Source: Roseomonas sp. CECT 9278
GTDB lineage: Bacteria > Pseudomonadota > Alphaproteobacteria > Acetobacterales > Acetobacteraceae
Assembly (NCBI RefSeq): GCF_918698155.1
Contig: NZ_CAKKLX010000003.1
Location: 62,001 to 126,000, forward strand
Direction: 5' to 3'
Length of the DNA stretch: 64,000 nt
The position numbers and the translations under genes were made by a program. Every line of letters starts with the position of its first letter. Position 1 is the first letter of the stretch. The notes beneath the pieces are model-generated. The model was not told where the DNA came from and made no database searches. It saw only the letters and a list, made by a program, of their open reading frames with translations. Positions 22,611 through 27,307 of the stretch are shown here, piece by piece.

Positions 22611-23450
22611 ATGCGCCTTCTCACCGGTCACGCGCGCCTTGCCGGGGTCCTCGGCTGGCCTGTCTCGCATTCCCGCTCGCCGCGCCTGCATGGGCATTGG
22701 CTTGCCACGCTCGGGATCGATGGCGCCTACCTGCCGCTGCCGGTCCACCCGGACCGGTTCGCCACCGCCGTCCATGCGCTGGCGGATCTCGGTTTTCGCG
22801 GCGCCAATGTCACCATCCCGCACAAGCAGGCGGCCTTCGATGTCTGCCACAGCGTCGATGCCACGGCGCGGCGCGCCGGCGCGGTGAACACGCTGGTGTT
22901 CCGCGACGGCCGGATCGAGGGTTCCAATACCGACGGGTTTGGCTTCCTGGAGAGCGTGCGCGCCGGGGTGCCGGGCTGGCAGCCTGCCGCTGGCCCGGCC
23001 GTGCTGCTCGGGGCCGGTGGCGCGGCGCGGGCGGTGGCGGCCGCGCTGCTCGACGCCGGCTGCCCGAGGGTCACGCTGGTGAACCGGTCGCGCGCCCGGG
23101 CAGAGGCCTTGGCCGGTGATCTCGGCGGCCCCATCGTGGTGGCGGACGTACCGCCGCTGCACGATGCCGCGCTGCTGGTGAACACGACGGCGCTCGGTAT
23201 GCAGGGACAGCCGCCGTTGCAGCTCGACCTGGCGCCCCTGCCCGCACAGGCCGTGGTCGTGGACATCGTCTATGTCCCGCTGGAAACCCCGCTGCTCGCC
23301 GCGGCGCGGGCACGCGGGCTTCGCGCGGTGGATGGGCTCGGCATGCTGCTGCACCAGGCGCGCCCCGGCTTCGAAGCCTGGTTCGGCGCCGCCCCCGGCG
23401 TGGACGAGGCGCTACGCGCCGTGGTCGCCGCCGACATCCCGCCACGATGA
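22611..23450 (+). CDS. aroE: shikimate dehydrogenase (NADP+)
   Basis: Reduces 3-dehydroshikimate to shikimate in aromatic amino-acid synthesis. 279 residues. Substrate domain: VLGWPVSHSRSPRLHG (~13-28) and NVTIPHKQA with the catalytic Lys (~66). NADP domain: LLGAGGAARAV (~127) and NRSRARAEAL. SNTDGFGF supplies the conserved catalytic Asp. ATG 22611; ribosome binding site GGCGGG is close. Its stop overlaps coaE by 4 bp; aroE-coaE-dnaQ is the alphaproteobacterial near-origin block. Confidence 0.95.
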   Translation: MRLLTGHARLAGVLGWPVSHSRSPRLHGHWLATLGIDGAYLPLPVHPDRFATAVHALADLGFRGANVTIPHKQAAFDVCHSVDATARRAGAVNTLVFRDGRIEGSNTDGFGFLESVRAGVPGWQPAAGPAVLLGAGGAARAVAAALLDAGCPRVTLVNRSRARAEALAGDLGGPIVVADVPPLHDAALLVNTTALGMQGQPPLQLDLAPLPAQAVVVDIVYVPLETPLLAAARARGLRAVDGLGMLLHQARPGFEAWFGAAPGVDEALRAVVAADIPPR

Positions 23451-24070
23451 TCGTCATCGGCCTGACCGGCGGCATCGGCATGGGCAAGTCCACCGCCACC
23501 GCCACGCTGCGCCGCCTGCGCATCCCGGTCTTCGATGCGGATGCGGCCGTCCATCGGCTCCAGGCCCGCGGCGGGCGCGCCGTGGCGCCGATCGCCGCGG
23601 CCTTCCCCGGCTGCGTGCGCGACTGCCGGGTGGATCGCGAGGCCCTGCGCCGCGCGGTCCTGGGCAATCCCGCGGCGCTGAAGCGCCTCGAAGCCATCGT
23701 CTGGCCGCTGGTGCGTGATGCGGAGCGCCGCTTCCTGGCCCGTGCCCGACGCAACGGGCAGGGCATCGTCGTGCTCGACGTGCCGCTGCTGTTCGAGAAT
23801 GGCGGCCAGCGGCGCGTCGACCAGGTGATCGTCGTCTCGGCGCCGGCCGCCGTGCAGCGCGCGCGGGTGCTGCGGCGGGCTGGTATGACGGCGGAACGCT
23901 TCGCGGCCATCCATGCGCGGCAGATGCCGGATGCGGAGAAGCGGCGACGGGCGGATCATGTGGTCCGAACGGGGATCAGTCGGCATTTCGCGCAGGCGGC
24001 CATCCGCAGGGTGGTGAGGAAGCTGCGGGGCTCTGCCCCGCACCCCGCAAGGGGCCGACGGGCCCCTTGA
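23447..24070 (+). CDS. coaE: dephospho-CoA kinase
   Basis: Last step of coenzyme A synthesis: phosphorylates the ribose 3'-OH of dephospho-CoA. 207 residues with P-loop GLTGGIGMGKST (5-16), DADAAVHRL (~30), and VVLDVPLLFENGG (~108-120), the substrate-binding signature. Overlaps aroE by ATGA. The last ~15 residues (RGSAPHPARGRRAP) are encoded by two stacked GC hairpins at 24025-24069 and are probably not part of the conserved fold. Confidence 0.95.
   Translation: MIVIGLTGGIGMGKSTATATLRRLRIPVFDADAAVHRLQARGGRAVAPIAAAFPGCVRDCRVDREALRRAVLGNPAALKRLEAIVWPLVRDAERRFLARARRNGQGIVVLDVPLLFENGGQRRVDQVIVVSAPAAVQRARVLRRAGMTAERFAAIHARQMPDAEKRRRADHVVRTGISRHFAQAAIRRVVRKLRGSAPHPARGRRAP
24025..24069 (+). repeat. 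paired GC hairpin module at the end of coaE
   Basis: First hairpin 24025-24041 (6-bp stem GCGGGG/CCCCGC, loop CTCTG) followed by a perfect 9-bp hairpin 24048-24056/24061-24069 with loop GACG. The same order (CTCTG-loop hairpin, short linker, hairpin with a 4-nt loop) occurs at 39624-39677. It lies inside the 3' end of coaE and may end its transcript, although no T-run follows. Confidence 0.75.
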
Positions 24071-24113
24071 CCACGGGATTCTAGGGTCGGACCAAGCCTG
24101 CTAGTGTTGCGCC

Positions 24114-24812
24114 ATGCGGCAAGTCATCCTTGATACCGAGACGACCGGTCTCGATCCCCTGCATGGGGATCGCGTGATCGAGGTGGCGGCGGTCGAGCTT
24201 GTGAACCTGCTGCCGACTGGCAATGTCTTTCATCGGCTGGTCGATCCCGAGCGCGACATCCCGGCCGAGGCCACCCGTATCCATGGCTTCACCAACGCCG
24301 ATCTCCAGGGCAAGCCGCGCTTCGCCACCATCGTCGAGGAGTTCATCGCCTTCCTGGGCGATTCGCCGGTCATCGCCCACAACGCGCCTTTCGACTTCGG
24401 CTTCCTCGATGCCGAGCTTCGCCGCTGCGGCGCGCCGCCGCTCGATCGCAGCCGCATGATCGACAGCCTGGCCCTGGCCAAGCTTCGCTATCCGGGCATG
24501 CCGAACAGCCTCGATGCGCTGTGCCGGCGCCTTGGCGTCGACAACTCCATGCGCGCCGCCCACAACGCGATCCTGGACTGCCGGCTGCTCGCGCAGGTCT
24601 ACCTGGAGCTGATGGGCGGCAAGCAGCCTGGCTTCGAACTGGCAGCCAGCCAGGCCGGCGGGGCCGATGCCCTGACCATGGGCGAGAGCGTCGCCTGGAC
24701 GCCACGCCCCATCCCGGTCAGCGACGACCAGGCCGGCAGCCACCAGGCCTTCCTGCGCGCCAAGGTGAAGGACGCGCTGTGGCTCAAGCCACCCTTCGCG
24801 ACCGAGGCATGA
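24114..24812 (+). CDS. dnaQ: DNA polymerase III epsilon subunit (3'-5' proofreading exonuclease)
   Basis: 232 residues. ExoI motif LDTETTGLDP (6-15), ExoII HNAPFDFGFLDAEL (~89), and ExoIII region HNAILDCRLLAQVYLEL (~150), a DEDDh-type active site with catalytic His and Asp in place. The tail ends TPRPIPVSDDQAGSHQAFLRAKVKDALWLKPPF, like the C-terminal segment that binds the alpha subunit in this clade. Separated from coaE by a hairpin module and ~43 bp. Confidence 0.94.
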   Translation: MRQVILDTETTGLDPLHGDRVIEVAAVELVNLLPTGNVFHRLVDPERDIPAEATRIHGFTNADLQGKPRFATIVEEFIAFLGDSPVIAHNAPFDFGFLDAELRRCGAPPLDRSRMIDSLALAKLRYPGMPNSLDALCRRLGVDNSMRAAHNAILDCRLLAQVYLELMGGKQPGFELAASQAGGADALTMGESVAWTPRPIPVSDDQAGSHQAFLRAKVKDALWLKPPFATEA

Positions 24813-25047: not shown

Positions 25048-26106
25048 TCAGGCCGACCGCAGGATCCGCATCAGCTGGGTGACATGCTCCGGCGGCGTCT
25101 GCGGCACGATCCCATGGCCCAGGTTGAAGATGTACGGCCGGCCGCGCATCGCCCCCAGGATCGACCGCGCCTCGGCTTCAAGCGAGGCCCCGCCCGCCAC
25201 CAGCGCCAGCGGATCCAGGTTGCCCTGCAGCGCCATGGTCGGCGGCACCGCCTGCGCCGCCCAGCGCGGGTCCATCGAGGTATCGATGGCGGTCGCATCC
25301 ACCCCCGCCCGCGCGGCGTAATCCGTCAGCAGCGGGCCCGCCAGGCGCGGGAAGCCGATCAGCGGTACCCCCGGGCAGCGCTTGCGCAGCGCCCGGGTGA
25401 TGGCCGCGGTGGGTTCGATCACCCACCGACGGAACTGGCCAGGCGAGAGCATCCCGGCCCAGGAATCGAAGATCATCAGCGCCTCGGCGCCGGCCTCGAC
25501 CTGCGCCACCAGGTATTCGACCGTGGCGTCCTGCAGGGTGCGGATCAGCCGCCCGAACAGCGCCGGGTCGGCATAGGCGAGCCCCCTGGCGGCCGGGAAT
25601 TCCTTGCTGCCCTTGCCTTCCAGCATGTAGCAGGCGACCGTGAAGCAGCCACCGGCGAAGCCGATCAGCGTGGTGCGCGGGGCCTCGGCCGCCAGGCCGG
25701 CGCGGACCCGGGCCACCGTCTCGAACACCGGCGCGGCACGTGCCACCACCACGGACGGATCCAGCGCGGCGATCGCCTCTGCCGTGCGCAGCGGCTCGAG
25801 CAAGGGGCCCTCGCCTTCCGCGAAGCGCAGCGGCTGCCCCAGCGCCCAGGGGATCATCAGGATGTCGGAGAACAGGATCGCCGCTTCCATGCCATAGCGG
25901 CGGATCGGCTGGAGCGTGACCTCGGCCGCCAGCGGCGGCGTGGTGCAGAGGCTGATGAAATCCCCGGCCTGCGCGCGCAGCTCGCGGTATTCCGGCAGGT
26001 ACCGCCCGGCCTGGCGCATCAGCCAGGCCGGCGGCGGCCATACGGCTTCGCCACCCAATGCGCGCAGGAGAGGCTTGGTCGGGCCGGTCGCTGGTTCGCT
26101 GTCCAT
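25048..26106 (-). CDS. hemE: uroporphyrinogen decarboxylase
   Basis: Removes four carboxyls from uroporphyrinogen III to form coproporphyrinogen III (heme biosynthesis). 352 residues. Signatures: WLMRQAGRYLPEYRELRA (~28-45), FSDILMIPWALG, GFAGGCFTVACYMLEG, DSWAGMLSP and LGHGIVPQTPPEHV near the end. ATG 26106 (GAAGGG 6 nt upstream) is preferred over the in-frame TTG at 26112. In many alphaproteobacteria hemE forms one border of the chromosomal origin; the gap upstream of it here has matching features. Confidence 0.95.
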   Translation of the reverse strand: MDSEPATGPTKPLLRALGGEAVWPPPAWLMRQAGRYLPEYRELRAQAGDFISLCTTPPLAAEVTLQPIRRYGMEAAILFSDILMIPWALGQPLRFAEGEGPLLEPLRTAEAIAALDPSVVVARAAPVFETVARVRAGLAAEAPRTTLIGFAGGCFTVACYMLEGKGSKEFPAARGLAYADPALFGRLIRTLQDATVEYLVAQVEAGAEALMIFDSWAGMLSPGQFRRWVIEPTAAITRALRKRCPGVPLIGFPRLAGPLLTDYAARAGVDATAIDTSMDPRWAAQAVPPTMALQGNLDPLALVAGGASLEAEARSILGAMRGRPYIFNLGHGIVPQTPPEHVTQLMRILRSA

Positions 26107-26404
26107 GGACAACCCTTCGCAAGGAATCAGGTTTTAAGAAAGGGTGTGTAGGTAGTTGGGGGTGTGGATGACGGGGATTCAGCCACCGCCGATCCGCCAG
26201 GCGGTTTCGCCCACCGGCCGGCCGGCCCCGCCACCCCAGGTACAGCCTGGGCTGGTTGAAGCTGTCCACATCGTCCCCAGGGAGCGCCGCGATCCATCCG
26301 CAGGCCGCCATGGATGTGTCGTCGATTCACGATGTCCACCGAGGCGACGCGACGGCATGATTCCATCCCCGTCATCCACAGCGAAGCGCGCTACTATCCC
26401 CACG
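26107..26404. other. candidate chromosomal replication origin (oriC)
   Basis: The 298-bp gap between divergent hemE and the PPDK-regulator gene is the place of oriC in Caulobacter and Rickettsia (established: hemE/RP001 border). Seen here: two DnaA-box-like 9-mers TCATCCACA, one mismatch from TTATCCACA, in opposite orientation (26163-26171 on minus, 26372-26380 on plus); a weaker CTGTCCACA at 26262-26270; four GANTC sites (26124, 26176, 26324, 26359); and a relatively A/T-rich tract at 26118-26158 containing GTTTTAAGAAAG. No open frame of note. Confidence 0.62.
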
Positions 26405-27307
26405 ATGATCCACCGCCAGATCAACCTCCATTTGGTCTCCGATTCCACCGGGGAGACACTGAACTCGATCGCGCGCGCCACGCTCGCGCGGTTCGACGAC
26501 CACCATGTCATCCATCATCGCTGGTCGCTGGTGCGGTCCCGCCTGCAGCTCGACCGCGTGCTGGAGGGCATGGAGCACGAGCCCGGGCCGGTGCTGTTCA
26601 CCCTGGTCGATTCCAGCCTGCGCCTGGCGCTGGAGGAACATTGCGGGCGGCTCGGCCTGCCGTGCTTCTCGCCGCTCGATCCCGTGATGGATCTGTTGCA
26701 GAGCGCGATCGGCGCCCGCGCGAAGGAACGCCGCGCCGCCCAGCATGTCATGGATGCCGATTACTTCCGGCGCATCGACGCGATGCACTACGTGCTCAGC
26801 CATGATGACGGGCAGGGCACGCTGGGCATCCGCAATGCCGACGTGGTGCTGGTCGGGGTGTCGCGGTCGTCCAAGACGCCGACCTGCTTCTACCTGGCGA
26901 ATCGCGGGATCAAGGCGGCCAATGTGCCGATCGTGCCGGGCGCCGCGCTGCCGGATGCGCTGGAGAACCCGCCCTGCCCGGTGGTCGGCCTGCATATCGA
27001 GGTGAATGCGCTGATCGACATCCGCCGCCACCGTCTCAAGATCATCGGCGCTGGCGGCGTGCGCCAGGACGCCACCGACTACATCGATCCCGAGGCGGTG
27101 AAGGCCGAGATCGTCGCCGCGCGCCGCCTGTGCACCGCGCGGGGCTGGCCCGTCATCGACGTGACCCGCCGCAGCATCGAGGAAACCGCCGCGACGGTGC
27201 TGCAGCTGATGGATGCCTGGCATGCCCGCCGCAAGGATGCCGTCGCGCCGCCGCCGCCCGATGACCCGGCCGCGGCGGTGCTCGGCCAGGCCGGGCCGGG
27301 CGCGTGA
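26405..27307 (+). CDS. PPDK/PEP synthase regulatory kinase-phosphorylase (DUF299)
   Basis: Bifunctional ADP-dependent Ser/Thr kinase and Pi-dependent phosphorylase that switches pyruvate phosphate dikinase or PEP synthase off and on. 300 residues; N-terminus [20 protein letters not shown] is the family hallmark, and the P-loop reads [10 protein letters not shown] at about 151-160. Ends in a Pro/Ala-rich tail. ATG 26405 lacks a strong ribosome binding site. Divergent from hemE across the candidate origin; overlaps maf by GTGA. Confidence 0.93.

Follow-up and report, generated by a model that had tools for sequence, protein, structure and literature searches.

Chromosomal origins of the hemE–COG1806 type, among them Cori of Caulobacter crescentus (Brassinga et al., via PMC1914354), are the closest described systems to the locus studied here, which has the boundary genes, DnaA boxes and an A/T-rich part in common with them. 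The same source reports related alphaproteobacterial origins without CtrA sites. A second comparison is the basal unwinding system, described in PMC10225481, which reports that across more than 2000 species 85% of origins have DnaA-trios, and mentions the hemimethylated GATC cluster of the E. coli origin. Adenine methylation at GANTC has been studied in two relatives: the Caulobacter origin has several GANTC sites and ccrM deletion leaves its initiation control intact (PMC3973325), and CcrM stimulates the expression of repABC at ori2 of Agrobacterium, an effect that its authors call reminiscent of Dam/SeqA control (PMC11514494). No paper on a Roseomonas or Acetobacteraceae origin was found that matched all subject terms, and nothing wider is claimed. 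The locus is a further case of an already known origin type, and GANTC in the Caulobacter origin was known before.

A candidate origin between hemE and the PPSR gene

The window, the whole stretch of DNA that was analysed, is 64 kb long (C3:62001–126000) and comes from a 5.44-Mb draft genome of 113 contigs, of which contig C3 measures 234 kb. A sequence-only reading of the window had proposed an oriC in a gap between divergent hemE and PPDK-regulator genes. The gene pair was confirmed by Pfam matches in opposite orientation (Table 1), with the hemE start set at ATG 26106; the open reading frame list opens it at an in-frame TTG at 26112. Synteny, DnaA boxes, an unstable tract, conservation and the proximity of parS and parB all support the origin proposal, and judging from these sequence characters the 298-bp gap is very probably the chromosomal oriC of this Neoroseomonas-type bacterium (Acetobacteraceae). 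That would locate the origin in a group of Roseomonas-like bacteria.

Table 1. Features of the hemE–PPSR region, in window coordinates
Feature	Position	Strand	Evidence or remark
hemE, uroporphyrinogen decarboxylase, left boundary gene	25048..26106	-	PF01208, E 1.2e-111
Candidate oriC, hemE–PPSR intergenic region	26107..26404 (C3:88.1–88.4 kb)	.	298 bp
Presumed DNA-unwinding element, includes GANTC 26124–26128	26124..26158	.	nearest-neighbour stability scan, rank 1
DnaA-trio-like TAG-G-TAG-TT, adjoining GC clamp GGGGG (26158–26162)	26149..26157	+	sequence
Left DnaA box TCATCCACA	26163..26171	-	motif scan; aligned with 31 relatives
Weak second box (CGGGGATTC on +), contiguous with left box	26172..26180	-	overlaps GANTC 26176–26180
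Third, weaker box CTGTCCACA, two mismatches to TTATCCACA	26262..26270	+	motif scan
GANTC site (GATTC)	26324..26328	.	motif scan
GANTC site (GATTC)	26359..26363	.	motif scan
Right DnaA box TCATCCACA	26372..26380	+	starts 209 bp after left box
-10-like TACTAT, end 7 nt before PPSR ATG	26392..26397	+	leaderless promoter, inferred from sequence
PPSR/PPDK-regulatory protein (COG1806-type, Kinase-PPPase family), right boundary gene	26405..27307	+	PF03618, E 3.6e-82

DnaA boxes and the unstable tract

The two inverted boxes and the weaker third that the sequence-only reading described were all recovered, each outer box differing from TTATCCACA by one mismatch. Sites with at most one mismatch to the DnaA box number three in the 64 kb, and two of them are in the gap. 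None of 2000 dinucleotide shuffles of the region yielded three YBRTCCACA boxes, and nowhere else in C3 do three DnaA boxes fall within 350 bp. The orthologous gap of a congener (G104) is likewise the sole three-box place per 350 bp in the 400 kb read; the 420 kb scanned in the near-complete relative G088 never had a pair of such boxes inside 350 bp, and the gap itself (L115) has a single box of at most one mismatch. Conservation in sister species had been proposed as a check, and YBRTCCACA is present in at least one copy in the gaps of 74 of 79 relatives (from the best 80 of 409), totaling 157 instances against a shuffle mean of 2.2.

The gap is less GC-rich than its surroundings (0.641, vs 0.724 for the whole window). 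Its A/T-rich tract is short (about 26124–26145), and lies inside both the least stable 35-mer (26124–26158) and the least stable 50-mer (26108–26157) of the window, at the hemE side of the gap. In relatives this side keeps a common order: unstable tract, TAG-bearing stretch, GC clamp, TGTGGATRA, and a contiguous box with a GGGGA core. By eye, and uncounted, the tract of relatives often carries GANTC. For column counts we anchored 80 sequences (79 relatives and the window, best 80 of 409) and dropped six without an anchor; the anchors of a few of the remaining 74 (e.g. L074, L137, L140) are visibly misplaced yet were kept. Of these 74, 60 have a TAG in the 20 bp preceding the box, compared with 29.6 in shuffles, and columns +10 to +14 from the left box start read G-G-G-G-A at 73–96%. 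The distance between outer boxes was scorable in 36 of the 80 sequences, with L074 entered with a misplaced left site, and is 207–210 bp, about 20 helical turns, in 30 of the 36. The position of the third box varies among relatives.

In sequence, the hemE side resembles a basal unwinding module composed of unstable tract, TAG trios, GC clamp and tandem boxes. Box, clamp, trios and tract stand at 26124–26180 in the order described for that system in PMC10225481; the correspondence is one of anatomy, and the contiguous second box is weak, with its GGGGA core. The analysis shows anatomy, conservation and location, and from there we infer unwinding, helicase loading and firing as follows. DnaA-ATP would bind the outer boxes, which are inverted and 209 bp apart, as well as the weaker inner boxes. 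Starting at the left tandem boxes, a DnaA filament would extend over the GC clamp, engage the TAG trios on one strand and melt the neighbouring unstable tract; the helicase would be loaded there, on the hemE side. ParB–parS, 41–46 kb away, would then segregate the new origins. Methylation of GANTC by CcrM would most likely mark newly fired, hemimethylated origins and tune overlapping promoters.

Conservation of the address

Of 80 named relatives (best 80 of 409), 79 share the divergent hemE–PPSR arrangement; in the remaining one (L091) the contig breaks off 59 bp upstream of the PPSR gene. Within that same best 80 of 409, PPSR identity ranks Roseomonas rosulenta and Neoroseomonas species as the nearest. 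At class level, divergent hemE was found in 28 of 29 loci; these 29 scored best among 50 other matching genomes, from 77 genomes drawn. Since the relatives are mutually related, such counts are not independent. A PPSR match is present in 98 of 120 family genomes; because the other 22, and 26 of the 77 class genomes drawn, gave no match, the hemE–PPSR address is not universal.

Across the window and 31 Neoroseomonas-like relatives, the gap mostly measures 294–302 bp and has box-like edges. The gaps of relatives were taken to begin at the first aligned hemE residue, and some include a few hemE codons.

What is kept within the gap is the unwinding module and the outer boxes at near-fixed spacing; CtrA and IHF sites are not. 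We found no full CtrA site (TTAA-N7-TTAA) in the window and an exact one in 1 of 79 relatives (best 80 of 409). The IHF consensus, in its strict form, occurs neither in the window nor in any of the 79 relatives (best 80 of 409). As CtrA sites are nearly absent, we do not class this origin as Caulobacter-type and CtrA-controlled. It differs from the Caulobacter origin in lacking a full CtrA or consensus IHF site, in its length of 298 bp, and in the GANTC arrays, of up to 12 sites, that some relatives carry.

Position relative to parS, dnaA and GC skew

In all six genomes searched, the best parB and the nearest parS-like site (up to two mismatches) are 6–43 kb from the gap. Our own genome has parS-like sites at C3:42145 and 45392 and its best ParB at C3:46900, 41–46 kb from the gap. 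In the five relatives (G104, G088, G102, G045 and G100), the best parB is at 6–31 kb and the nearest parS-like site at 8–28 kb. By contrast with these distances, dnaA in the same five is 0.18–1.7 Mb from the gap or, in G104, on another contig; in our own genome it is on contig C9, not C3.

The genome of G100 is a single 2.7-Mb contig with six parS-like sites, three of them perfect and 11.2–15.1 kb from the contig start, near which its PPSR gene also lies. Besides the nearest, G100 has two parS-like sites that are 0.25 and 1.2 Mb off.

The GC-skew minimum, which the sequence-only reading offered as a test, gave a divided answer. Skew in the window alone is weak and irregular. Taken strictly, C3 shows the outcome that this reading had named as refuting, since its cumulative minimum is at about 180 kb, some 92 kb from the candidate; the skew is, however, weak and patchy, and the contig represents only 234 kb of a 5.44-Mb genome. 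In the 400 kb of G104 read, the minimum is at 177 kb, about 170 kb from the gap at 346 kb, and is due mostly to a strongly skewed run near one end of those 400 kb. If taken alone, these two minima speak against the oriC reading. The near-complete relative G088 nonetheless gave its best even-replichore fit at the gap. For G088 we pooled sixty 20-kb samples into 42 bins, treated contig C1 (5.48 of about 6.0 Mb) as a circular chromosome, and scanned it in 50-kb steps, with the PPSR position at 567 kb included. The top even-replichore score, 0.274, fell at 567 kb, and the dnaA position scored -0.116. None of 5000 permutations scored as well at 567 kb, and 7 of 1000 did so at any position. With unequal replichores allowed, 100–150 kb scored slightly higher (0.286) and 600–650 kb tied with 567 kb, which limits the resolution to a few hundred kb. 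Within the contiguous stretch from 380 to 800 kb (420 kb), the G088 skew minimum is at 590 kb. Other points that weigh against the oriC reading are the slightly higher score at 100–150 kb, the single box and the GANTC count equalled elsewhere in G088, the lack of full CtrA and consensus IHF sites, the genomes with no PPSR match and the two distant parS-like sites of G100.

A local skew reversal was noted at C3:180000–200000; that stretch has one DnaA box but no cluster.

C3 holds a second pair of DnaA boxes outside the window, at C3:34269–34382 (L006:14269–14382), in the same direction and with starts exactly 105 bp apart. They lie at the 3' ends of convergent genes, one for an acyltransferase (PF01553, plsC-like) and one that we take to be ChaC-like. 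Among 20 same-genus loci (L277–L296), the 105-bp pair is found in 11 (with orthologues in L278–L287); in nine of the 20 both boxes have the TCCACA core, at most one mismatch and the 105-bp spacing, and L279 and L287 have a weaker site at +105. It was not seen in the other nine, of which L288, L289 and L292 have box 1 and GGGGATAA near that distance, nor in any of ten loci outside the genus (L297–L306). In the 11 loci the spacer shows little conservation, and [G/A/C]TCTGGGGA follows box 1. The pair is 23–154 kb from PPSR in the nine genomes with both on one contig. A role like that of datA or DARS is our guess; among the matches listed for datA/DARS and alphaproteobacteria, work on E. coli and Vibrio predominates.

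We consider it extremely improbable that the origin is elsewhere, whether at the C3 skew minimum near 180 kb, at parAB–parS (C3:42–47 kb, with parS-like sites at 42.1 and 45.4 kb), at the second box pair (C3:34.3 kb) or at dnaA. The skew minimum, the parS-like sites and the box pair each lend this some support, but the surroundings of the minimum offer just one box and no more than 3 GANTC per 350 bp, and the box pair is between convergent genes and missing from nine of the 20 same-genus loci. The neighborhood of dnaA, which the sequence-only reading had named as a competing place, was dropped: no box was found in the 140 kb of C9 read, and its score in G088 is negative.

GANTC sites and presumed promoters in the gap

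The sequence-only reading counted four GANTC sites in the 298 bp (at 26124, 26176, 26324 and 26359) and estimated about one by chance. The count is correct, and the mean density of the window (57 in 64 kb) would give 0.27; all 298-bp windows with four GANTC in the 64 kb overlap the gap. Dinucleotide shuffles of the gap give a mean of 1.18, with P(>=4) = 0.028, so the excess is modest in a single genome. Within C3 the gap ties with one other place, C3:16123, for most GANTC per 350 bp (5). The G104 gap also has 5, exceeded at two other places (7 and 6), and the 4 in the G088 gap are equalled at several other places (two in 420 kb).

The gaps of 79 relatives (best 80 of 409) contain 342 GANTC, threefold more than the dinucleotide-shuffle mean of 117 (100 runs, maximum 146), vs 88 expected from base composition and about 21 from flanking density; seven other palindromes of equal composition number 24–90 in the same gaps. 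Over base composition this is a 3.9-fold excess, compared with 1.7-fold at class level (82 vs 47, 28 loci). Individual gaps vary from none (3 of 79) to at least seven (14 of 79), with arrays of 10–13 in L128, L129, L132, L138 and L149 (Belnapia, Craurococcus) and in L032, L043 and L048. The G036 gap has 12 per 350 bp, where the next place in 220 kb has 7, and the G102 gap has 12 vs 4 elsewhere in 180 kb. The GcrA-type motif YGAKTCG is also enriched, with 52 occurrences vs 15.6 in shuffles.

The RAMA (CcrM-type) and GcrA families match in all six genomes searched. Among 14 control genomes, RAMA matched in Caulobacter only, and GcrA in Caulobacter and, oddly, Sulfolobus. The RAMA match of our own genome (C18:85903–86208) runs over one TAG codon.

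Both motif enrichments and both protein families would also suit a gap that is a double promoter only, with DnaA and GcrA/CcrM regulating hemE and PPSR and replication starting elsewhere, as would the PPSR end of the gap. There only 7 nt separate the -10-like hexamer from the ATG, as in a leaderless promoter; aligned relatives often have a TATTCT-like reading at this position, and the right DnaA box overlaps the presumed -35 region. A promoter would nevertheless not require an unstable tract with trios and a clamp, nor tandem boxes placed at a near-fixed distance from a far box, and both the proximity of parS and parB and the G088 skew put the origin region at hemE–PPSR. Promoter and origin functions can, moreover, coexist. 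We think it very unlikely that the gap is a promoter region alone. With the gap taken as oriC, DnaA may also control the PPSR gene, since the right box overlaps its presumed promoter.

In E. coli, oriC has a GATC cluster on which SeqA acts. The origins of GANTC-rich relatives are similar in having adenine-methylation sites densely placed inside the origin, and differ in methyltransferase and motif; the window's own origin has only four sites. The sequence-only reading held that GANTC methylation controls replication in alphaproteobacteria. Enrichment of the sites and an encoded CcrM-type protein agree with such a link, but Caulobacter without CcrM controls initiation normally (PMC3973325). In light of that result and of the Agrobacterium ori2 work, the arrays represent a testable rather than demonstrated methylation timing, and a role of CcrM in timing initiation is speculative. 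GANTC-rich relatives would provide a natural test of whether CcrM can time initiation outside Caulobacter.

A novel reading, which we regard as unlikely, is that in this family methylation has replaced the control of oriC by CtrA and IHF known from Caulobacter. Fired, hemimethylated origins would be silenced via a GcrA-like or SeqA-like reader, aided by arrays of up to 12 GANTC per ~0.3 kb in Belnapia and relatives, and in part of the genus the distal box pair, its 105 bp making ten helical turns, would regulate or titrate DnaA as datA and DARS do in E. coli.

Gene order beside the probable origin

The genes aroE-coaE-dnaQ (window 22628–24812) are on the hemE side of the origin. The dnaQ gene is on that side in 32 of 109 loci compared, whereas 25 of 29 class-level loci have aroE on the side of PPSR. 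The block seems to have moved across oriC.
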